Origin: a virus
Direction: 5' to 3' (one strand)
Virus record (IMG/VR): IMGVR_UViG_3300030116_001618
Location: 3,301-35,302 of that record
DNA length: 32,002 nt
Shown piece after piece: positions 1,758 through 25,820 of this stretch. Position numbers and translations under genes: made by a program. The notes under the pieces were generated by a model. That model was not told the origin of the DNA, searched no databases, and saw nothing but the letters and a program-made list of their open reading frames with translations. Within the stretch, counting starts at the first letter, position 1. The number at the start of each line of letters is the position of its first letter.

Positions 1758-2468
1758 ATGAAAAAATCATTTACAATAAAAGTACCAATGTCTCTTGACG
1801 CAATACCACTTTCTCACTACCAGAAATATGTAAAAGCAGTAGATGAAAATAAAGATAATTCAGATCAAGAATTTCTTAGCTTGAAGTTACTAAATATATT
1901 TTGCGGTATTACTATGAAACAAGCATATGAATTACCAATAGCAGAATATGAATCCATCCTTAAACATCTGTCAGAATTACTAGGTCAAAAATCAATACTA
2001 CAAAGAAGATTTTATATGACAGATCCAAAAGGTAAAAAGTTAGAATTTGGTTTTATACCAAACTTAGATAAAATGACTTTAGGTGAATATATAGATGCAG
2101 AAAAATATATGTCAAGCTGGGAAGATATGCACAAAGCTATGGCTGTTTTATATAGACCTATAGTTGCGGGTAATAAAGATTTCTATCTTATAGAAAAGTA
2201 TGAAGGTAGTGACAAATATTCTGATATAATGAAAGATGCGCCTTGCACTGTTGCTATAGGTAGTATGCTTTTTTTTTTGAGTTTAGGGATAGAATTGTCG
2301 AAAACTACTCTGGACTCTTTACTCAAACAGCAGCAGATATCGAAAGAGGATCTCTTAGCCAAGGATTTGGAAAAAAATGGGGATGGTATCAATCAATATA
2401 CTCGCTTGCAAAAGGAGATGTATTTAAAATTGACAAAGCTACAAGAACTAATTTACACAAAGCGATGA
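1758..2468 (+). CDS. Tail assembly chaperone, short (unshifted) form
   Basis: This encodes 236 residues and opens the tail operon. The N-terminal part contains PLSHYQKYV, LLNIFCGI and ELPIAEYESIL patterns seen in a protein that opens tail modules of flavobacterial phages. A hydrophobic segment (about residues 166-178) contains F172-F173-L174. I assign it as the equivalent of lambda gpG: it is a tail-module gene upstream of the tape measure, with a second open frame reached by -1 slippage at a T10 run (2269-2278). Downstream of the run, codon use differs from the rest of the gene (CTC, CTG, GGG, CAG), as expected where two frames are constrained. The function assignment is inference from organisation and is not proven by homology. 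Confidence 0.7.
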   Translation: MKKSFTIKVPMSLDAIPLSHYQKYVKAVDENKDNSDQEFLSLKLLNIFCGITMKQAYELPIAEYESILKHLSELLGQKSILQRRFYMTDPKGKKLEFGFIPNLDKMTLGEYIDAEKYMSSWEDMHKAMAVLYRPIVAGNKDFYLIEKYEGSDKYSDIMKDAPCTVAIGSMLFFLSLGIELSKTTLDSLLKQQQISKEDLLAKDLEKNGDGINQYTRLQKEMYLKLTKLQELIYTKR

Positions 2469-2536
2469 TGTGGTTAGAGTTTGAAAAAGATAAATCTGAT
2501 CTAGAAGAAAGAATGATTAAAAAAGCATATAAATAA
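1758..2536 (+). CDS. Tail assembly chaperone, probable -1 frameshift fusion (gpGT-like)
   Basis: Reading 1758-2276 and then 2276-2536 gives about 259 residues. The -1 frame is open from a stop at 2261-2263 to TAA at 2534-2536. It encodes a convincing protein tail with FGKKWGWYQSIYSLAKGD, then IDKAT...NLHKAM and LEERMIKKAY at the end. It has no ATG of its own before 2465. The slip would occur on the T10 run at 2269-2278. The fusion's stop overlaps the next gene's start (TAATG), the junction style used throughout this genome, whereas the unshifted stop leaves a 67-base gap. This matches the gpG/gpGT principle of many long-tailed phages. A homopolymer sequencing error is the alternative. Confidence 0.65.
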
Positions 2537-2997
2537 TGATAGCAGTATACGAAACATTAGAAAAAATAAAAGACAAGCTAAGAGAAAATCCGTCTATCCA
2601 AACGGTTACGTTTGGAGACTTGATGCAAGTAGATTTAGCTAAAACATCAATATTCCCTATAGCACACGTTGTAATGGGAAATGTTGCATTCAGAGATCAT
2701 ATTATAGTTATGAATTTAAGAATATTATTTTTAGATATAGTAGATGATAATAGAGTACCAAACTCATTTGATCAATTCTTTGGTAACGACAATCTTATCG
2801 ACATCTTAAACACACAACTTTCTGCAGCAAATATTTTACAAGAGAATCTTAGAAGAGGTTCTGGTTATGCAGATTTGTTTCAAGTAAAAGGAGATATAAA
2901 TTGTCAGCCTTTTTTAGATACACTAGAAAATCAATTAGCTGGTTGGGGAATGGACTTAGTATTAGAATTACCAAATAAAACTACAAGCGTTTGTTAA
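2536..2997 (+). CDS. Putative tail completion / tail terminator-like protein
   Basis: This encodes 153 residues. The N-terminus (YETLEKIKDKLRENPSIQTVTFGD) and the following alternating strands (IAHVVMGN, IVMNLRILFLDIVDD) resemble a protein commonly found between the tail chaperone and neck genes of flavobacterial phages. The length and predicted alpha-beta pattern fit tail terminator or completion proteins, which cap the tail tube and join it to the head. Its start overlaps the stop of the frameshifted upstream product (TAATG). No catalytic motif is present. The position is strong evidence for a virion assembly role; the precise joint it fills is inferred. Confidence 0.55.
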   Translation: MIAVYETLEKIKDKLRENPSIQTVTFGDLMQVDLAKTSIFPIAHVVMGNVAFRDHIIVMNLRILFLDIVDDNRVPNSFDQFFGNDNLIDILNTQLSAANILQENLRRGSGYADLFQVKGDINCQPFLDTLENQLAGWGMDLVLELPNKTTSVC

Positions 2998-2998
2998 T

Positions 2999-3136
2999 AT
3001 GCCACTAACTAAAAGAAAACCAGGAGAAAAAAGAAAAGACTTTATGATGAGGTGTATGACTGATCCTACAATGCGAAAAGAATTTAAAAATACAGATCAA
3101 AGATTAGCTGTATGTATAACACAATATAATAAATAA
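2999..3136 (+). CDS. Small protein with the DFxxRCM...QRxAVC phage motif (45 aa)
   Basis: This short frame has 45 residues. It contains RKDFMMRCM, a DP.MRKEF segment, and then DQRLAVCITQY. That spacing matches a small motif often found at the ends of phage head proteins (protease or portal), here as an independent gene. Two cysteines at comparable places are conserved in that motif, but its role is unknown to me. It starts one base after the previous stop and its TAA overlaps the next ATG (TAATG), so it is clearly an operon member. Confidence 0.7.
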   Translation: MPLTKRKPGEKRKDFMMRCMTDPTMRKEFKNTDQRLAVCITQYNK

Positions 3137-3597
3137 TGGCTTTCACAATAGAAGATGTTTTAACCGAATTAGGCAATAGGATAGTTGAAGAAATAAAATC
3201 TGAACTTAGATCTAAAGACAAAAGAGCTACAGGAACTCTAATTGACAACTTAGAAGCTAAAGCAGTTGGCAAAGAATTAATCATAAAATCTCCTGGTGCA
3301 GAAAAATATCAAAGTATAGTTGATTTAGGTAGAAGACCTGGTAAAGGTGTACCGCCAGATAATTTAAGAAAATGGATTGCTATAAAAGGTTTAAGACCTA
3401 ACAGATCAAGAAATATAAAAACCGAACGTGATCTTTATTTTGTGATACAAAGAAAAATTAAAAATGAAGGTATACAGGGTATAGGATATTCTACAGCTTC
3501 TTTACAAAAGTTTGGTCCAATTATAGGTCAGGCTGTAGGTTTAAAGTATCAAGAAGAACTAGCGAGAATAATGAAACAATTAAAAGCAATAATATAA
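3136..3597 (+). CDS. Neck / head-tail joining protein (HK97 gp10-like)
   Basis: This encodes 153 residues. The order of elements is typical of the gp10-like neck proteins: an N-terminal helix, a KRATGTLIDNL segment, a strand-rich part with YQSIVDLGRRPGKGVPP, and KWIAIKGL followed by a basic helical region (DLYFVIQRKIKNEGIQG). In that family the protein sits in the head-tail joint of long-tailed phages. The gene is coupled to both neighbours through TAATG overlaps. The GRRPGKG.PP signature makes this one of the clearer assignments in the tail module. Confidence 0.75.
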   Translation: MAFTIEDVLTELGNRIVEEIKSELRSKDKRATGTLIDNLEAKAVGKELIIKSPGAEKYQSIVDLGRRPGKGVPPDNLRKWIAIKGLRPNRSRNIKTERDLYFVIQRKIKNEGIQGIGYSTASLQKFGPIIGQAVGLKYQEELARIMKQLKAII

Positions 3598-7522: not shown

Positions 7523-7658
7523 AAATATATTAGACTTATTAAAATTAGATGATTATTACGGTGTATCACCTTTAATTGATATTGCAAAGGGTAAATATGA
7601 AGCACCCAGAACTTTAAAAGAAGCAAAAAACAAAATAAAGAGATTTAGAAATGAATGA
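7506..7658 (+). CDS. Small hypothetical protein between tail genes (50 aa)
   Basis: This short frame begins with ATG 17 bases before the end of the 716-aa tail gene and ends with TGA 8 bases into the tape measure gene, so it fills what would otherwise be a gap of 128 bases. The product has LKNILDLLKLDDYYGVSPLI and a basic C-terminus rich in Lys and Arg. There is no membrane segment and no family I recognise. Overlap on both sides supports translation as an operon member. Confidence 0.6.
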   Translation: MISMLKNILDLLKLDDYYGVSPLIDIAKGKYEAPRTLKEAKNKIKRFRNE

Positions 7659-9645
7659 AGAATTTATATTAAAAATAGTCGTAGATGATGGTGAATTTAT
7701 TGTAAAATTACCAGACACAGAAAAAAGGGTAAAAAGTTTAGGTCAAGCGTTTGATGTAGCGAAAGAAAAAACTAAAGCTTACTCAAAAGAAACTGAGATT
7801 GCAGCTAAGAAAAATATTGATCTAACTTCAAATGCAGGTTTAGCTGGTGCAACATTAACAGAGCTTGGTAGAACAATATCAGATTTACCTTTTGGTATTC
7901 GAGGTGTAGCTAACAACCTTTCACAACTATCTACTTTATTTATTACACTTGTTGCTAAATCTTCAGATGGAGGTAAAAGTTTAAGAGGTGTTGGAGAAGC
8001 CTTTAAACTACTCAAAAATCAGCTATTAGGTCCACTCGGTATAATTTTAGTATTTCAGTCAGTTATTGCATTACTAGATTTCTTTTCACAGAAAAGTAAA
8101 AAAGCCGCTAATGCAGCAGATTTATTTACAGATGCTGCTGACAGACAAGCAAAAACACTAAGCGTTTTAGAGTCTAAATTAAAAGACACTAATTTGTCAC
8201 TTGAAAATAGACAAGCCTTATTAGATGCAGCTTCTGTTGCTTCTAATAGATTGTCAAAAATATTAGACGATGAAACTATATCTCTTGAAGAAAGAAATAA
8301 AAAAGCAGAAAGATTTTTAGAATTAGAAATACAAAGACTTAAAAGACAATCTTTAATTGAAAAGGCAGAAGAGAATTTAGCCGCTGCTCGTGAAGCAAGC
8401 ACAAAGGCTATTGAAAATGAAAATAAAGGTTTAGAGGGTTTTATTGCTACTGTTAATAGAGGGACTACAAGTGCTGATATTCAGGCTCAACAAACAGCTT
8501 TTCTTAATAAGAAAAAAAGAGAGTCTAAAGAAGCAACTGATGCAGTTGCAACAGCAGAAACAGCCTTAACAACACTTTTAATAGGTAATGCAGAAATTAT
8601 AAAAGAACAAAGCGATTTACTAGAAACCAACACAAAAAAGAAAAATGAGAACACTAAGGAAACAAAAGCACAAATTATTACTTTCAAAGAGTTTTTATCA
8701 TTACAACAACAAGGAACTTCTATAGAATTAGCAAACATTGAATTGTTAAGAGAAAGAGAAATATCAGCTCTAAAACAAAGAGGGTTGTCTTTCGAAGAAT
8801 TTCAAAAAGGCAAAGATTTTATTATAAGGATGTCTAAAAATGCAGAACTTAAAGTGTTGCAGGATTTAGTATCTTCCAATAGAGTTTCAGGTGTAGAAAG
8901 AATTAAAATAGAAGAAAGAATAGCGCAAATTATTGGTGAACTTTTAGATAGTACGCAAGATAAAATAAAGAAAACCACTGAAGGATCAAAAACTAACTTT
9001 CAAAAAACTCTAGAAGAAATATCATTTTTACTTGGTGAAATAGAAAATATTTCTAATATGTTTACAGACGCTGAACTTAGTAGGGAGGAAAGAAAAACAG
9101 TAATGCTAAATAATCAGCTTAGAGAAAGACTTAGAAATGAAAATTTATCAAAAGAAGAGAGAATTAGAATAAATAAACAAATTGAAGAAAACGAATTAAA
9201 ATTACAGAAAAAACGAGATGAAATAGCTGAAAGAAACTTTAGACTACAAAAAGCTTTTGCAATAGCTCAAGCTGCTATAAATACAGCTTTAGCTATCACA
9301 GATGTTTTAGCTAAGGAACCAGGTGGTTTAATTAAAAAATCACTAGCTGCAATAATTATAGGTGCACTAGGTGCTGCTCAAATAGCTGCTATTGCATCAA
9401 CAAAGTTTGTTCCTACAGCGACATCAGTTCCAGGTGGTGTAGGTTCGGTTGGTTCAGGCAGATCCACTGGTGGTGGTGCACAAGACCCTGCATTCAACAT
9501 AGTAGGTACAGGTCAACAATTTCAGTTAGCACAAGTTATTGCACAAAGAACAGGAGAGCCAATAAGAGCTTTTGTAGTAAGCGGTGATGTAAAATCAGGT
9601 CTTGCACTAGATAGAAATATTATTAGAAGTTCTAAAATAGATTAA
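7651..9645 (+). CDS. Tail tape measure protein
   Basis: This encodes 664 residues, mostly alpha-helical. Features seen: hydrophobic segments around residues 65-160 (TELGRTISDLPFGIRGVANN, then LGPLGIILVFQSVIALLDFF); long charged coiled-coil stretches in the middle (EERNKKAERFLELEIQRLKR); and a C-terminal hydrophobic Ala-rich region (KAFAIAQAAINTALAITDVL, then SLAAIIIGALGAAQIAAIAS) followed by a Gly-rich linker. This composition and size are typical of tape measure proteins, which set tail length and line the tube. Using about 0.15 nm per residue the tail would be roughly 100 nm long, a rule-of-thumb inference. The start overlaps the 50-aa gene. Confidence 0.85.
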   Translation: MNEEFILKIVVDDGEFIVKLPDTEKRVKSLGQAFDVAKEKTKAYSKETEIAAKKNIDLTSNAGLAGATLTELGRTISDLPFGIRGVANNLSQLSTLFITLVAKSSDGGKSLRGVGEAFKLLKNQLLGPLGIILVFQSVIALLDFFSQKSKKAANAADLFTDAADRQAKTLSVLESKLKDTNLSLENRQALLDAASVASNRLSKILDDETISLEERNKKAERFLELEIQRLKRQSLIEKAEENLAAAREASTKAIENENKGLEGFIATVNRGTTSADIQAQQTAFLNKKKRESKEATDAVATAETALTTLLIGNAEIIKEQSDLLETNTKKKNENTKETKAQIITFKEFLSLQQQGTSIELANIELLREREISALKQRGLSFEEFQKGKDFIIRMSKNAELKVLQDLVSSNRVSGVERIKIEERIAQIIGELLDSTQDKIKKTTEGSKTNFQKTLEEISFLLGEIENISNMFTDAELSREERKTVMLNNQLRERLRNENLSKEERIRINKQIEENELKLQKKRDEIAERNFRLQKAFAIAQAAINTALAITDVLAKEPGGLIKKSLAAIIIGALGAAQIAAIASTKFVPTATSVPGGVGSVGSGRSTGGGAQDPAFNIVGTGQQFQLAQVIAQRTGEPIRAFVVSGDVKSGLALDRNIIRSSKID

Positions 9646-9676: not shown

Positions 9677-11242
9677 ATGAAAGATTTTAAAGTCATAGAG
9701 CTTGTTTTAGATGAAGAGAATGAAATCTCTGGAATACAAGCAATATCAATAGTAGATGATCCAGCAATAGAAGAAGAATTTATTGCTCTTGCATCACAAG
9801 ATATAAAATTAGCACAAGTAGATGAAGAGAAGAAAATATTGATGGGTCCAGCTCTCATACCTAACAAAAAAATATATAGAAAGTTTGAAGAGCAAGAATA
9901 TTTTATATACTTCAGTGAAAATACAGTCAAAAAAGCAGCAGAGCTTTTTTTGACAAAAGGTAAACAAAACAACAGCACTTTAGAGCATAAAATAAACCTA
10001 AACGGTTTATCTGTTGTAGAATCTTGGATTATAGAAGATCCTAAAATGGATAAATCAAAAAAATACGGATTTGATTTACCAAAAGGTACTTGGATGGTTA
10101 CTATGAAAGTCAATAATGATGAAATTTGGGATACTTATGTGAAAACAGGTAAAGTAAAAGGTTTTTCTATTGAAGGACACTTCGTAGATGCATTAAAATA
10201 TGATGAAGAAGAAGAATTAGAAGAAAGCGAACTCGCAGCACTATCTTTAATAGAAGAATTAACTGAAGAATTAGATATAGAATTAGAAACTTACTCTGAT
10301 TATCCTGCGGGAGTTAGAAATAATGCAAAAAGAGTATTAGAATATGTTGAAAAAAATGGCTGGGGCAGTTGTGGAACACCCGTAGGCAAACGAAGAGCTG
10401 CGCAAATCGCTAAAGGTGCTAATTTGAGTGTCAACACGATAAAAAGAATGAGAAGTTTCTTACTTAGACACGCAAAAGATCTAGAAGTATCTAAATCTTA
10501 TGGTGATGGTTGTGGTAAACTTATGTATGATGCTTGGGGTGGTAAAGCTGGTCTAAGATGGGCAGAATCTAAACTAAAAGAACTAGGAGAAATAGAGCTG
10601 ACATCTAAATCTGTAGACGAGGACTATGCTATAATAGACGATAGACTAGCATACTCATCTAAAGAGAAAGCAGAAGAAATGGCTAGAAATATTGGATGTG
10701 AGGGTATACACGAACACGAATTTGAAGGTAGAACTTGGTATATGCCTTGTAAATATCATAATAAAGAAGAGTTAAAATATCATTGTCCTGAAGGTTATAA
10801 AAGAAAAGACGGTAAATGTATAAAGATGGCAGAGGTAGGACCTAGAGGTGGCATTCGAAAGAGTCCAAAAGCTCCAGGATCTAAAACACCAAATCCAAGA
10901 CCTAAAGGAAAGGGCAGTGCAAAAGGAACTGCCAAAGGTAAAAGAGGCGCAAAAGTATCTGCAAAAGATCGTGCAGCTTTACAAAAAAAAGCTGATGACT
11001 TTAACAAAAGATATAAGGAAAAATTAGGATACGGTATCACAGTAGGTATGTTGGCTTCTGTATTTCAAAGAGGTTTAGGTGCATTCAACACAAGTCATTC
11101 ACCAAGAGTAAAATCACCCTCACAATGGGCACACGCCAGGGTCAATGCCTTTATGTACTTAGTAAGAAACGGAAGACCACAAAACCCAAAGTATACAACT
11201 GACTATGATCTTTTACCATCTAAACATCCTAAAAGTAAATAA
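9677..11242 (+). CDS. Prohead protease (XkdF-like) fused to several accessory modules
   Basis: This encodes 521 residues. Residues about 56-170 match XkdF-type putative serine proteases: GPALIPNKKIYR, YFIYFSENTV, TLEH104, VESWIIEDP, PKGTWMVTMKV and GFSIEG (S164). H104 and S164 are the likely catalytic pair. Three further parts follow. About 208-303 (YPAGVRNNAKRVLEY...CGTPVGK, WGGKAGLRWAESKL) is a module seen in other phage head proteins. About 317-360 has paired cysteines (IGCEGIHEHEFEGRTWYMPC). A Lys/Gly/Pro linker (about 395-430) then leads to a terminal domain with FQRGLGAFNTSHSP and WAHARVNAFMYLV, resembling DUF5824. It is located just before the scaffold and capsid genes, as expected for capsid maturation. 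Confidence 0.75.
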   Translation: MKDFKVIELVLDEENEISGIQAISIVDDPAIEEEFIALASQDIKLAQVDEEKKILMGPALIPNKKIYRKFEEQEYFIYFSENTVKKAAELFLTKGKQNNSTLEHKINLNGLSVVESWIIEDPKMDKSKKYGFDLPKGTWMVTMKVNNDEIWDTYVKTGKVKGFSIEGHFVDALKYDEEEELEESELAALSLIEELTEELDIELETYSDYPAGVRNNAKRVLEYVEKNGWGSCGTPVGKRRAAQIAKGANLSVNTIKRMRSFLLRHAKDLEVSKSYGDGCGKLMYDAWGGKAGLRWAESKLKELGEIELTSKSVDEDYAIIDDRLAYSSKEKAEEMARNIGCEGIHEHEFEGRTWYMPCKYHNKEELKYHCPEGYKRKDGKCIKMAEVGPRGGIRKSPKAPGSKTPNPRPKGKGSAKGTAKGKRGAKVSAKDRAALQKKADDFNKRYKEKLGYGITVGMLASVFQRGLGAFNTSHSPRVKSPSQWAHARVNAFMYLVRNGRPQNPKYTTDYDLLPSKHPKSK

Positions 11243-16225: not shown

Positions 16226-19200
16226 ATGGGTACTACTTTAACGGGAACTTTTATTAGCCAAACTTATGACTCCTTAATAAAGGTAACAGACAACGATAAC
16301 TTAACATCTACAGCAAAAAGACTTACTGATGGATTAGGTAACGACTCACCTTTATTTTTATCTACAACAAAATTAGGAGTTGGCGTTACACCTACAACTA
16401 CATTTCAAGTAGCAGGTAATTCACAACTAGGTGGTAACTTGACTGTAACAGGTAATCTAATTGTACAGGGGACAACTACAACTGTAGATACAGATACTTT
16501 ATCAGTTAAAGATCCTTTAATTATTGTAGGATCTGATAACACCTCTAGTGACGCAGTGGATTTAGGTTTCTATGGCGTGTATGATACATCAGGATCATTA
16601 GATCTTTATGCAGGTTTATTTAGAGATGCAAGTGACGCAAAGTTTCATTTATTTAAAGATTTACAAACAGAGCCTACAACTACTGTAAACAAAAGCGGAA
16701 CAGGGTATACCAAAGCAGGTTTAGTTATTGGTGGTTTAGAAGCAACAACAGGGAGTTTTTCAGGTAATATAGAAGCGACTTCCTACATACAATCTAATAA
16801 CAATTTTCTTACAAAAGGAACATTAAAGTTTAGCAACAATGCAGATAACAGTTTTATAAATGGCTTTAGGAGAGTTTCGGGTGCTGATACTTTAGAATTA
16901 TTAAATATTTCAAATATAAATAATAGTGAGGGTAGTGGTGTTACTTTTGGAGGTACTATTACAGTAAGTGGCGGAGACATTACGTTAGGCGGTACAGGAA
17001 GAATACAAGGTATAGATACTGTCTCAGCTAGTACAGATGCAGCTAACAAAGCTTATGTAGATGCACAAATTACAGCCCAAGATTTAGATATAGCTGGTGA
17101 TAGTGGAACAGGGTCAGTCGATTTAGATTCACAAACGTTTACTGTAGCTGGTGGTACTAATGTAACAACATCTGTAAGTGGTCAAACAGTAACAATAAAC
17201 GCAACAGGTTCTATTGATGGTAGTGGTACTGCAAATGATGTAGTAATGTGGCAAGATTCTGACACATTAACAGATGCACCTATTGCTATTTCTGGTAACA
17301 ATGCAACTTTTGCTGGTAATGTAGATTTAGGTGATAGTAAATTATTAAATATTGGAGCAGGAAGTGACTTAAATTTATCTCACGATGGTACTCATTCATA
17401 TATACAAAATAATACAGGAACACTTCATTTAATGCAAAATACTGATGACGGAGATATGTTATTTATGTGTGATGATGGTTCAGGAGGGACTACTGAATAT
17501 TTAAGATTAGATGGTGGTGATGTAGAAACTGTATTTACTAAAAGAGCAAAGTTTATTGACAATACTAATCTAAATATTGGTAGCTCAAGAGATTTGCAAA
17601 TATTTCACGATGGTACAAACTCATTTATAAAAAACAATACAGGTGGTTTATTTATTGACCAAGAGCTTGATGATGGCGATATTTCTTTTAGGTCTGATAA
17701 TGGTAGTGGTGGAAAATTAACATACTTGTTTTTAGATGGTAGTAATACAAGATTACAATTTAATACTAATTTAATAACAGGAGACAATAATAAATTAGTT
17801 TTTGGTAATAGTGGAGATTTAGAAATATATCACGATGGGGCAAATTCTTTTGTACAAGATACAGGTACGGGTGGATTATTTTTAGAAGGTAACGGAGAAG
17901 TTAGAATTAGAAAATCTGCAACAAGTGAGATAATGGCTAAGTTTATTGCAGATGGTGCAGTAGAACTTTATCACGACAATAGTAAAAAATTAGAAACTAC
18001 AAGTACAGGTATTAGTGTAACAGGAACAGCAGACATATCATCTCAAGTTTTAGTTGGTGGTAACGATTCAATTTTTGCAGAAAATAATTTAAGGTTTTTA
18101 AGTTCAGGAGAGGCATTTATTGACCACGGGACTGTTGGACAAGCAATTTCTTTTAGAGTTAGTAATTCTAGTGGACTTGATACAGTTGCTCTAACTTTAA
18201 ATTCAAGTGGTAGTTCAACCTTTGGTGGTAATATAACTACAAGTGGACATATATTTATACCTGTTGCTAAAAATTTATATTTTGGTGGAGGAAGTCATAC
18301 TTATATTGGAGAAGATATTGACGATAGATTAAGATTTTTTGTTGGTGGCGCAGAGTTTATGCGATTTACAGAAGATACTTCTGATACAATACAATTATTT
18401 CAAGATACAACTGTAACAGGAGAACTTAATGTACAAGATGCTACCCATTCAACATTTAGAGTTAAGTCAGGAAACAACGATAATATTTTATTTGCACAAG
18501 CAATACAAAGTGATAATGCAAGGGTGGGAACACAAACAAATACTCCTTTATCATTTTTTACAAATTCATCTGAAAGAGTAAGAGTTACAACAAGTGGTCT
18601 AGTAGGGATAAACTATACTTTACCTTCAGCTAAATTACATATAGAAACAGGAAGTGATGAGGGTATAAGAATACATCGAACAGGAACAAATGCTAATTTT
18701 GGTGCAATAGAATTTAGAAACAGTGATGATTCTGCGACTAATTCAAGAATTGGATATAATGCAAATGAAATGAGATTAGAAGCTACTAACCAATTTAGGT
18801 TTGTAACAAACAGCTCTGATACGATGTTTATTAATAGTTCAGGTAATGTAGGAATTGGAACCACATCACCTGCAACTGGTTCTAGATTAACATTAAGGAC
18901 AAGTGCTTCGACAGGTATGACAATATTGTCAGCATCTAATACTGGAGAATGTTTTATAAATTTCGCTGATAACGATGACCCTAACAGAGGATCAATATTT
19001 TATGGTCATCAGGAGGACAAAATGGTCTTTAGTACAAACGATGTTGCTGCGCTTACGATTAACAGCTCACAAAACGCAACTTTTGTAGGTAAAGTGAGTG
19101 TTGATGCAGGTAGTACATTTGATTCAATGCTTACAATACAAGGTAATGAATCAGGTGGGCAAACACAAACATTTTTGCATCTTAATTCTGGCAATAACAG

Positions 19201-21889
19201 TTCTGCTTTTCCTTTTTTGGCAACTTTAAATAATGCTGATATTAGCTCTGCTACATTTGGTTGGGGTTTTGTAAATAGTAATACAAATGGAAATTTAGAA
19301 TTATACAGATGGAATAATGCAGCTGGGGTCTTAAATTTAAGTTTTGAAAGGTCATCAGGTAATGCAACTTTTGTAGGTGACGTAAATATTGGTGTTGCAG
19401 ATGGTGGAGAAAGAAAACTAAAAATACACGGAGGGGCAAGTGGTTCGCCTGAAGGTGGTCAAATAGAGTTACACACAGCAGCAGACCACGATAGCACCTA
19501 TGCTTTTTATAGAATAGATGCCTATCAAGATGACTTTAGAATTGGTAGAGCAGGAACTACTGATATACTTTTAGATAGTTCAGGCAATACAACTTTTTCA
19601 GGTTTTGTAAAAGCACCATTTTTTACAAGTGATGGTGGTAGAGGATTCAAACAAGATAGTGTTGCATTTGTAAGCACATATTCAAATGGTGCTGATGCTA
19701 ATGCTGTTAATGATATTGGTTCTACATCAAACAAATGGAGAGACGCTTATTTTAGTGGTCAAGTAAATTCTGCCACAATATCAACAACAGGAAACGCAAC
19801 TTTTGCAGGTCAATTTGTAAATATTACACATAGTACAAATGCAGGTGCAGGTATGGGCTTAAATATAACCAATACAAACACATCTGGAAATAGTTTTGCT
19901 ACAATAAATATTGCAGGCGCTAATGGTACAGTAAACACACAAATATTTAGTGACGGTTCAGGAACAGGTGGTTTTGGTTCAGCAGGTTCAGTAATTAGAA
20001 CAAGCACAAATCACCCAATCTATATAGGCACAAATTCTACTACTGCTCTAACATTGGACACATCACAGAATGCAACTTTTGCAGGGGCAGTAACAGTTGG
20101 GACTGGCACTGTAGCGGCAGCTAACGCAGCAGCGGATGATTTTGTTATAAAAGGACCAGGCACTACAGCTACTGGTATGACAATATCTAACACATCAGAC
20201 TCTGGAACTGGTACAATATTTTTTGGAGATACAACAAGTAGTTCAGCAGCAGGTTTTAGATATAATCATAATACTGGTGATATGGCTATATCAGCAGAAG
20301 ATAATGTAACATTTGATTGCGACAATGTAGGTATTGGAACGACATCACCTGGAACAAAATTAGATGTAGCGGGCAGCGGTAAATTTCAACCAGGAATTGC
20401 AGATGGTGATGCTTTAGTTACAATAGCACAAACAAATTCAAATGCATATGTACACGCTGGATTAAAAATAAATGCTGGAAATACAAATCCATTTTATATA
20501 TATCAATCAGGTAGCTCAAATACTTTAAGATTTAATTACAACAGTTTATCTGACGCTGGTGGGCAAATGGTAATTACAGATGGAGGTAACGTAGGAATCG
20601 GAGCAGCATCGCCTAGTTACAAGCTACAAGTTGGTGGAACTGCTTATATTAATGACACACTTTATGTTAATGGTGCAACTACAATAGATGCTGACTTAAC
20701 AATTAGTGAAGCAAATGGAGAAATAAATTTTACATCTGGCAACGGAAATATTCAAACAACTACAGGTAGTACAAGTTTAGTATTAGGTGTAAATAGCTCA
20801 GAAAAATTTAGAATTCATAGTTCTGGTAACATAGGAATCGGAGAAACAAGTCCTGCTGAAGCATTAACTGTTGTTGGTACAATAAGAATGCAATCTGCAA
20901 GTGGAGATACAGATGGTTTGCATATATCATCAGATTCTAATGGTGATGCTTTAATAAATGCTGGATATTCAGTGTCGGATTTAAAATTTGCTACTGCTGA
21001 TTTACCAAGAATGACTATTGATAGTTCAGGTCGAGTGGGAATAGGCACAACAACACCTCAAAAAACTTTACATATAGAGGGCGAAACTGGTGCAAGTGCG
21101 TCTCAATTACTTGTTACAGGAGCAAGTGATACAACAGGACATACTGCTGGTATATTATTAAGAGCAGAAGGTGGTGAAGGAGATAGTTCATTAAGAGCAA
21201 AAGGTGGAATATTTTTTGAAAGAGAAGCAGCAAATGGATTGGGTAAATTACATTTATGTAATAACAACTCAAATAACAATGATTCGGCTGGTTTGTCAGA
21301 TGCAGCATTGACAATTGCACAAAATAAAAATATAGGAATCGGTACAACATCTCCATCAACACTTTTACACGTTGGTTTAAATCATACTGTAGGTAGTAAT
21401 TTTGCAAGTGCTTTTAGTAGCAGTAATTTCTTTGTCAACAACGGTGCTAATGGTGGCGCAGCAGTATTTCAGCAAGGTACTGCATCAGCTAATTTAGCTA
21501 TGTTTGGTAAAGATTCTAGTAATACAGCTATAAGTTTTTTCAACAGTGATTTAGCAACAAATACAAGTGCAGTTGGATCAATTACAACAAATTCAAGTGC
21601 CACTGCATTTAATACATCGTCTGACTACAGATTAAAAGAAGACCTTAAAGATTTTACTGGACTAGATTTAGTAAATCAAATACCTGTTTACGATTTTAAA
21701 TGGAAATTAGATGACACTAGAGCTTACGGTGTTTTAGCACACGAGCTACAAAATGTTTTACCACAAGCAGTATACGGAGAAAAAGATGCAAATGAAATGC
21801 AAGGTGTAGATTATTCAAAAATAGTACCACTGCTTATAAAATCAATACAAGAATTACAAAAAGAAATAGAAATACTTAAAAATAAATAA
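16226..21889 (+). CDS. Giant tail fibre with S74 self-cleaving chaperone domain
   Basis: This encodes 1,887 residues, the largest gene (about 18% of the window). The body is Gly/Ser/Thr/Asn-rich and beta-repetitive. Three units with a (H/Y)DG...N.TG pattern lie at about 17361-17900, and at least seven VGI-type turns (VGIGTTSP and variants) followed by a xLxVxG strand lie between 18600 and 21370. Many NATF(V/A)G units occur in between. The C-terminal end, from about residue 1797, is a Peptidase_S74 intramolecular chaperone: SSDYRLKEDLKDF, YGVLAHELQNVLPQAVYG, VDYSKIVPLL and a final coiled coil. By analogy with endosialidase fibres, self-cleavage would be just before S1799. It is probably the host-binding fibre. 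Confidence 0.88.
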   Translation: MGTTLTGTFISQTYDSLIKVTDNDNLTSTAKRLTDGLGNDSPLFLSTTKLGVGVTPTTTFQVAGNSQLGGNLTVTGNLIVQGTTTTVDTDTLSVKDPLIIVGSDNTSSDAVDLGFYGVYDTSGSLDLYAGLFRDASDAKFHLFKDLQTEPTTTVNKSGTGYTKAGLVIGGLEATTGSFSGNIEATSYIQSNNNFLTKGTLKFSNNADNSFINGFRRVSGADTLELLNISNINNSEGSGVTFGGTITVSGGDITLGGTGRIQGIDTVSASTDAANKAYVDAQITAQDLDIAGDSGTGSVDLDSQTFTVAGGTNVTTSVSGQTVTINATGSIDGSGTANDVVMWQDSDTLTDAPIAISGNNATFAGNVDLGDSKLLNIGAGSDLNLSHDGTHSYIQNNTGTLHLMQNTDDGDMLFMCDDGSGGTTEYLRLDGGDVETVFTKRAKFIDNTNLNIGSSRDLQIFHDGTNSFIKNNTGGLFIDQELDDGDISFRSDNGSGGKLTYLFLDGSNTRLQFNTNLITGDNNKLVFGNSGDLEIYHDGANSFVQDTGTGGLFLEGNGEVRIRKSATSEIMAKFIADGAVELYHDNSKKLETTSTGISVTGTADISSQVLVGGNDSIFAENNLRFLSSGEAFIDHGTVGQAISFRVSNSSGLDTVALTLNSSGSSTFGGNITTSGHIFIPVAKNLYFGGGSHTYIGEDIDDRLRFFVGGAEFMRFTEDTSDTIQLFQDTTVTGELNVQDATHSTFRVKSGNNDNILFAQAIQSDNARVGTQTNTPLSFFTNSSERVRVTTSGLVGINYTLPSAKLHIETGSDEGIRIHRTGTNANFGAIEFRNSDDSATNSRIGYNANEMRLEATNQFRFVTNSSDTMFINSSGNVGIGTTSPATGSRLTLRTSASTGMTILSASNTGECFINFADNDDPNRGSIFYGHQEDKMVFSTNDVAALTINSSQNATFVGKVSVDAGSTFDSMLTIQGNESGGQTQTFLHLNSGNNSSAFPFLATLNNADISSATFGWGFVNSNTNGNLELYRWNNAAGVLNLSFERSSGNATFVGDVNIGVADGGERKLKIHGGASGSPEGGQIELHTAADHDSTYAFYRIDAYQDDFRIGRAGTTDILLDSSGNTTFSGFVKAPFFTSDGGRGFKQDSVAFVSTYSNGADANAVNDIGSTSNKWRDAYFSGQVNSATISTTGNATFAGQFVNITHSTNAGAGMGLNITNTNTSGNSFATINIAGANGTVNTQIFSDGSGTGGFGSAGSVIRTSTNHPIYIGTNSTTALTLDTSQNATFAGAVTVGTGTVAAANAAADDFVIKGPGTTATGMTISNTSDSGTGTIFFGDTTSSSAAGFRYNHNTGDMAISAEDNVTFDCDNVGIGTTSPGTKLDVAGSGKFQPGIADGDALVTIAQTNSNAYVHAGLKINAGNTNPFYIYQSGSSNTLRFNYNSLSDAGGQMVITDGGNVGIGAASPSYKLQVGGTAYINDTLYVNGATTIDADLTISEANGEINFTSGNGNIQTTTGSTSLVLGVNSSEKFRIHSSGNIGIGETSPAEALTVVGTIRMQSASGDTDGLHISSDSNGDALINAGYSVSDLKFATADLPRMTIDSSGRVGIGTTTPQKTLHIEGETGASASQLLVTGASDTTGHTAGILLRAEGGEGDSSLRAKGGIFFEREAANGLGKLHLCNNNSNNNDSAGLSDAALTIAQNKNIGIGTTSPSTLLHVGLNHTVGSNFASAFSSSNFFVNNGANGGAAVFQQGTASANLAMFGKDSSNTAISFFNSDLATNTSAVGSITTNSSATAFNTSSDYRLKEDLKDFTGLDLVNQIPVYDFKWKLDDTRAYGVLAHELQNVLPQAVYGEKDANEMQGVDYSKIVPLLIKSIQELQKEIEILKNK
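17361..21370 (+). repeat. Degenerate beta-repeat tract within the fibre
   Basis: Two kinds of diverged protein repeat occur: DG(T/A)(H/N)S(Y/F) units near 17361, 17581 and 17815, and (N/R)(V/I)GIG(T/A/E)xxP turns near 18848, 20332, 20590, 20831, 21038 and 21332, with a related VGINYTLPSAKLHIETG near 18600. Repeats like these are prone to recombination and to assembly collapse. Confidence 0.8.
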
Positions 21890-25787: not shown

Positions 25788-25820
25788 AAGGGTGGGCAGA
25801 AATGTCCGCCCTTTTTTTTT
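25788..25820 (+). terminator. Strong terminator after the ERF pair, directly before the ATPase gene
   Basis: The stem AAGGGTGGGC/GTCCGCCCTT (25788-25797 and 25804-25813, with two G-T pairs) has loop AGAAAT and a T9 tract (25812-25820). The next gene's ATG is only six bases downstream, so read-through controls its expression. Confidence 0.93.

Follow-up and report, generated by a model that had tools for sequence, protein, structure and literature searches.

Does a run of ten T residues inside a gene of a tailed phage direct the synthesis of two proteins with different C-termini and, if so, is it the ribosome or the RNA polymerase that slips? We analysed a window of 32,002 nucleotides (positions 3,301 to 35,302 of IMG/VR record IMGVR_UViG_3300030116_001618), which is part of a 35.3-kb viral record. 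A plus-strand ORF at 1758-2468 of this window encodes a product of 236 aa, and the T run that it contains is read in the 0-frame as CTT TTT TTT TTG (Table 1). The -1 frame is open from 2264 and ends at a TAA at 2534-2536. Its first ATG is at 2465, no ATG, GTG or TTG occurs earlier in the open stretch, and its stop overlaps the ATG (2536) of the next ORF in a TAATG junction. A preliminary description, made from the DNA letters alone, had reported these ORF ends, the late first start and the junction, and all of its coordinates are right. Because a stop closes the -1 frame directly upstream and no -1 start precedes 2465, a slip is confined to the interval between 2264 and the 0-frame stop; homology to relatives places it at the T run.

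Gene layout and conservation of the frame relation

The gene at 1758-2536 very probably contains a programmed two-product switch at the T run. Standard decoding would give the 236-aa protein, composed of 173 shared residues and a 63-aa 0-frame tail. In a fraction of expression events, a slip of -1 on the U9-U10 run, equivalent to the gain of one U, would instead give a 259-aa protein with the same 173 residues followed by 86 C-terminal residues that include a WGWY motif. The layout of the gene, its invariance and the selection on both C-termini are computational results; the production of both proteins, their ratio and the slipping step are inferred. The gene is apparently a deeply conserved, programmed variant of the gpG/gpGT-type arrangement. 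Its N-terminal part matches phrog_32199 (E=2e-13) and its shifted C-terminal part matches phrog_38404, both families of unknown function. Synonymous shuffling predicts 0.1 T runs of at least 9 in the coding sequence of the window, and the single one observed is the slip run. Two further T9 runs, at 1666-1674 and 25812-25820, both apparently lie outside coding sequence.

Table 1. Features of the predicted two-product gene and of its downstream neighbours in the window
Feature	Position	Strand	Basis
N-terminal part shared by both products, 173 aa	1758..2276	+	0-frame ORF; N-terminal part conserved at about 500 loci
TAG, final upstream stop of the -1 frame	2261..2263	+	sequence
T10 run, predicted slip site	2269..2278	+	T9 or T10 in all relatives
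In-phase heptamer T_TTT_TTT (U_UUU_UUU) within the run	2270..2276	+	sequence
0-frame C-terminal tail (unshifted product), 63 aa and stop, overlapping the -1 frame	2277..2468	+	open longer than simulated; excess conservation
Shifted C-terminal part, 86 aa and stop, with WGWY motif; predicted 259-aa fusion	2276..2536	+	relatives
TGA in the third (+1) frame directly after the run	2278..2280	+	sequence
TAG, second third-frame stop	2284-2286	+	sequence
Next gene, start overlapping the fusion stop (TAATG)	2536..2997	+	homologue of P12024L gp42
Possible tail-completion/Neck1-like protein	3136..3597	+	phrog_5, weak (E=0.023); homologue of P12024L gp43
Probable tape-measure protein	7651..9645	+	phrog_1506 (E=3.4e-6); homologue of P12024L gp50

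To gather relatives, we scanned viral contigs, bacterial genomes and phage records at the protein level. With the N-terminal part as reference, the C-terminal part was in the -1 frame at 383 of 383 loci in a first set and at 112 of 112 further loci (some contigs recur), and no fused or third-frame arrangement was found among these 495 loci, which are related by descent and hence not independent. The run length was T9 or T10 at every junction and never T8 or T11: the first set comprised 278 distinct junctions, 234 with T9 and 44 with T10, and the second comprised 103, with 97 and 6, respectively. No other T run of at least 7 occurred in the N-terminal part of the gene in 177 kb of sequence from relatives. 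These counts bear out the -1 switch at the T run that the preliminary description had proposed. The loci include a bacterial chromosome contig of 3.9 Mb, MAG contigs and the isolate phages P12024L and P12024S, and the gene was carried by 3 of 397 genomes of one bacterial family. The viruses concerned form a widespread family that infects marine and freshwater Bacteroidota.

The Nonlabens (Persicivirga) phages P12024L and P12024S encode members of the same family (gp40/gp41), with a T9 site, the -1 relation and collinear downstream genes, but identity is 26-32% and the 0-frame tail has only 25 codons. Their annotation lists two hypothetical proteins, with no frameshift noted. In P12024L, gp40 and gp41 (JQ823123 23946-24640) look like one frameshifted gene that was annotated as two CDS. 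The analysis thus brings to light, across hundreds of environmental phages, a predicted two-product gene for which the annotation of the only named isolates found gives a pair of unrelated hypothetical proteins.

A profile scan and single-protein scans for fused, single-frame relatives retrieved only -1 loci. Separately, the BFVD single chains A0A516L611 (258 aa), A0A516L5A8, A0A6J5SVK3, A0A6J7WDG4 and A0A6J5N0W0, which range in size from 226 to 267 aa, appear to match the models of both the N-terminal and the C-terminal part. These chains may be true in-frame fusions or may reflect homopolymer errors in the source assemblies, and fused forms may occur elsewhere in phages. A distant fold relative occurs in Flavobacterium phage 6H (AGN89393, 10352-10927). 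It has only a T6 near its end and a different C-terminal part; a long -1 frame follows the T6, but a TAG immediately behind the T6 closes it.

Selection on both C-termini

To evaluate the overlap, the -1 protein was held fixed in a simulation in which codons were drawn from observed usage, for 75 representatives. The 0-frame tail is open for a median of 62 codons, compared with 14 in the simulation, and is longer than simulated at p<0.05 in 63 of the 75. Residue identity by column in the 0-frame is 0.34, versus 0.26 simulated, and the excess is concentrated in columns 1-62 and largely fades where 0-frame stops begin. The z-scores of this conservation are inflated by kinship, and the contrast before and after the 0-frame stop serves as an internal control. 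A Leu in column 7 of the 0-frame tail is kept in 74 of the 75 representatives while the overlapping -1 residue varies, and W35, G36 and W37 of the -1 C-terminal part are invariant. Judged from these patterns of conservation, both C-termini are under selection, with about 60 downstream codons coding for two proteins. The preliminary description had considered both overlapping frames after the T10 to be coding, which agrees with these figures, and had raised the case that homologues might conserve only one of them; when examined, both frames proved to be conserved. The Nonlabens phages and one MAG prophage (about 45 codons, by inspection) have short 0-frame tails, so the function of this tail is not shared by the whole family. 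With its length and the selection acting on it, the overlap offers a clean case of dual coding in phages.

These observations bear on two readings that dispense with a switch. Errors are common in homopolymers, and a single additional T would join the two frames, as expected if a single intact gene were disrupted by a sequencing or assembly error or by genomic phase variation. We regard this as extremely improbable: all 495 loci, drawn from many assemblies and from isolates, are unfused, a variable tract would be expected to yield some fused copies, and the 0-frame tail is selected in its own right. The invariance of the -1 relation and of the T9/T10 length, together with selection on both C-termini, makes error, phase variation and gene decay unlikely. 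Alternatively, the -1 C-terminal part might be an independent gene that is initiated downstream, as the two CDS in JQ823123 imply for P12024L gp40 and gp41. This, too, seems very unlikely, given that conservation starts right at the T run and that a start at 2465, the earliest available in the window, would omit the WGWY core.

Run length, codon register and the slipping step

Among relatives, the run occurs in each of the three codon phases. It spans site positions 2-10 in most lineages and 1-9 in a sister group (TTT TTT TTT, then G, A or C); other lineages have it at positions 3-11 (GGT TTT TTT TTG). The best tree has 13 register changes; independent-pair tests of register compensation included only 2-4 events and had no power. 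None of 160 representatives (<85% identity) has a run shorter than 9. With TTA or TTG as the -1 codon, a T to C change at site position 9 alters neither protein, and among 91 such representatives C was found in none, with about 11% expected; the p values are about 3e-5, 0.009 and 0.14 at thresholds of 80%, 60% and 50%, respectively, so that the test weakens as lineages are thinned. A third-frame stop falls within two codons after the run in 71 of 76 representatives, versus a background of 21%. The in-phase heptamer is present at every locus, and any run of nine T residues contains T_TTT_TTT. The preliminary description had taken the site for a simple homopolymer that substitutes for the usual heptamer, a contrast that has to be given up, as the T10 holds an in-phase U_UUU_UUU that is frameshift-prone in E. 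coli (PMC4066793).

Its remark that downstream structure is missing extends to the family. Folding of 35-90 nt downstream of the run in 76 representatives gave z-scores around zero (means of about -0.2 to +0.2), and RNAalifold identified no consensus pair in the downstream alignment. A hairpin at about 2279-2317 can be folded in the window alone and was rejected as a candidate stimulator, as it is not kept even in close relatives. An upstream Shine-Dalgarno-like sequence is present in only 9 of the 76 representatives. We consider it most likely that the run itself causes the slip and that no conserved RNA stimulator takes part. In this respect the gene differs from stimulated -1 frameshifting of the dnaX or IS type, whose conserved downstream structure or Shine-Dalgarno-like stimulator was not found in these 76 representatives.

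Given a real switch, RNA polymerase slippage on the 9-10 nt run would be slightly favoured, because a length of at least 9 is conserved, beyond the seven bases of the heptamer; -1 ribosomal slippage on U_UUU_UUU would be almost as good a candidate, and both may contribute. Slippage of the bacterial RNA polymerase has been documented at stretches of 9 A or T, and the RNA-DNA hybrid within the enzyme measures 9-10 bp (PMC5009743). If the polymerase acted alone, some mRNAs would carry an additional U (or lack two) and be translated normally into the long form, and third-frame mRNAs would stop at once. We give this version nearly an even chance. It would account for a run of 9-10 at all loci whatever the codon register and for the invariance of the silent site 9, and the frequent third-frame stop is reminiscent of those reported close to the run in Thermus dnaX (PMC5009743). 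That stop, however, can be imposed by the two coding frames themselves (TTA in one frame, an A-initial Arg or Lys codon in the other), and our literature search found no phage tail gene that uses polymerase slippage. A purely ribosomal -1 shift, in which two tRNA-Phe would slip together on U_UUU_UUU and the flanking T residues would reflect hydrophobic or aromatic amino acids instead of a need for a certain run length, is a credible alternative that we hold to be rather less than evenly likely. It is consistent with the in-phase heptamer at all loci and with the listing of U_UU.U_UU.U among E. coli frameshift-prone motifs (PMC4066793), and the named phage G/GT tail-chaperone systems are described as ribosomal in the literature examined. 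Seven T residues would be enough for such a shift, yet every one of the 160 representatives carries at least 9 while the register moves. Likewise, C is absent from position 9, where it would be silent and would leave U_UUU_UUC, which also slips in E. coli (PMC4066793). The lack of a conserved stimulator also argues against it, as stimulator-free heptamers in E. coli are weak, reaching at most about 10-fold above a background of about 0.05% (PMC4066793).

We tentatively propose, with somewhat under even confidence, that in a large family of Bacteroidota phages the ratio of two tail-morphogenesis proteins could be set by slippage of the polymerase rather than the ribosome, at an invariant T run whose 9-10 nt correspond to the hybrid length, and that about 60 codons behind it serve two proteins. 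Because evolution keeps the run length and not the heptamer, the family provides a natural test of whether phages use polymerase rather than ribosomal slippage to fix a protein ratio. Transcriptional slippage is recognised by run lengths that vary in mRNA but not in DNA. Known bacterial cases (Thermus dnaX, IS transposases and Shigella mxiE) have a 9-10 A/T run as the only conserved element, and they combine two products with a nearby third-frame stop, as is predicted for the phage gene. The slip run described here sits in a gene of a phage structural module, for which no such slippage case was found in the literature examined.

Neighbourhood and possible role in tail assembly

The window genes starting at 2536, 3136, 3597, 5372, 7506 and 7651 are collinear with P12024L gp42, 43, 45, 46, 49 and 50. 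Five ORFs separate the slip gene from the probable tape-measure gene (7651), and the same order occurs in P12024L; in lambda, in contrast, G/T and the tape-measure gene are neighbours (order U-V-G-T-H). Searches of Pfam, PDB sequences and the PDB with Foldseek found no usable relative of the slip-gene product, and a profile comparison with lambda G/T detected no homology. One weak BFVD match is named tail assembly chaperone (E=0.12). Structural models of the 0-frame product (pLDDT 82) and of the C-terminal part (pLDDT 72) have good matches only to uncharacterised phage proteins. VIA-align matches were discarded as a clue to identity, as they are generic and cover only C-terminal helices, and the model of the C-terminal part had no VIA-align match.

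The location in the tail region and the two-product architecture suggest that the slip gene, which the preliminary description had named a tail chaperone, may work like gpG/gpGT. As in the gpG/gpGT systems of lambda and TP901-1, a short product and a longer, -1-shifted product with a common N-terminus are encoded in the tail region, here as predicted from the reading frames. The slippery X_XXY_YYZ that is usual for such systems is also present in phase (T_TTT_TTT, in all relatives). The gene differs from them in its slip site, which is T9 or T10 rather than the GGGAAAG of TP901-1, and in its overlap of about 63 dual-coded codons, compared with an annotated G/T ORF overlap of 19 nt in lambda. 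Chaperones of the gpG/gpGT kind are made as two products in a fixed ratio, are absent from virions and bind the tape measure and the tube protein. By analogy with gpG/gpGT, the short form would bind the tape-measure protein and the rarer long form would recruit tail-tube subunits via its extra C-terminus, a division of roles that we consider fairly probable.

Two other genes in the window have unusual features. The region at 16226-21889 encodes a repetitive protein of 1887 aa, the C-terminus of which resembles, by eye, the self-cleaving intramolecular chaperone of tail fibres. The product of 9677-11242 is similar to head maturation proteases; a PHROG labelled DNA methyltransferase is a further match of its N-terminal half, and its C-terminal half looks like an extra fused domain.
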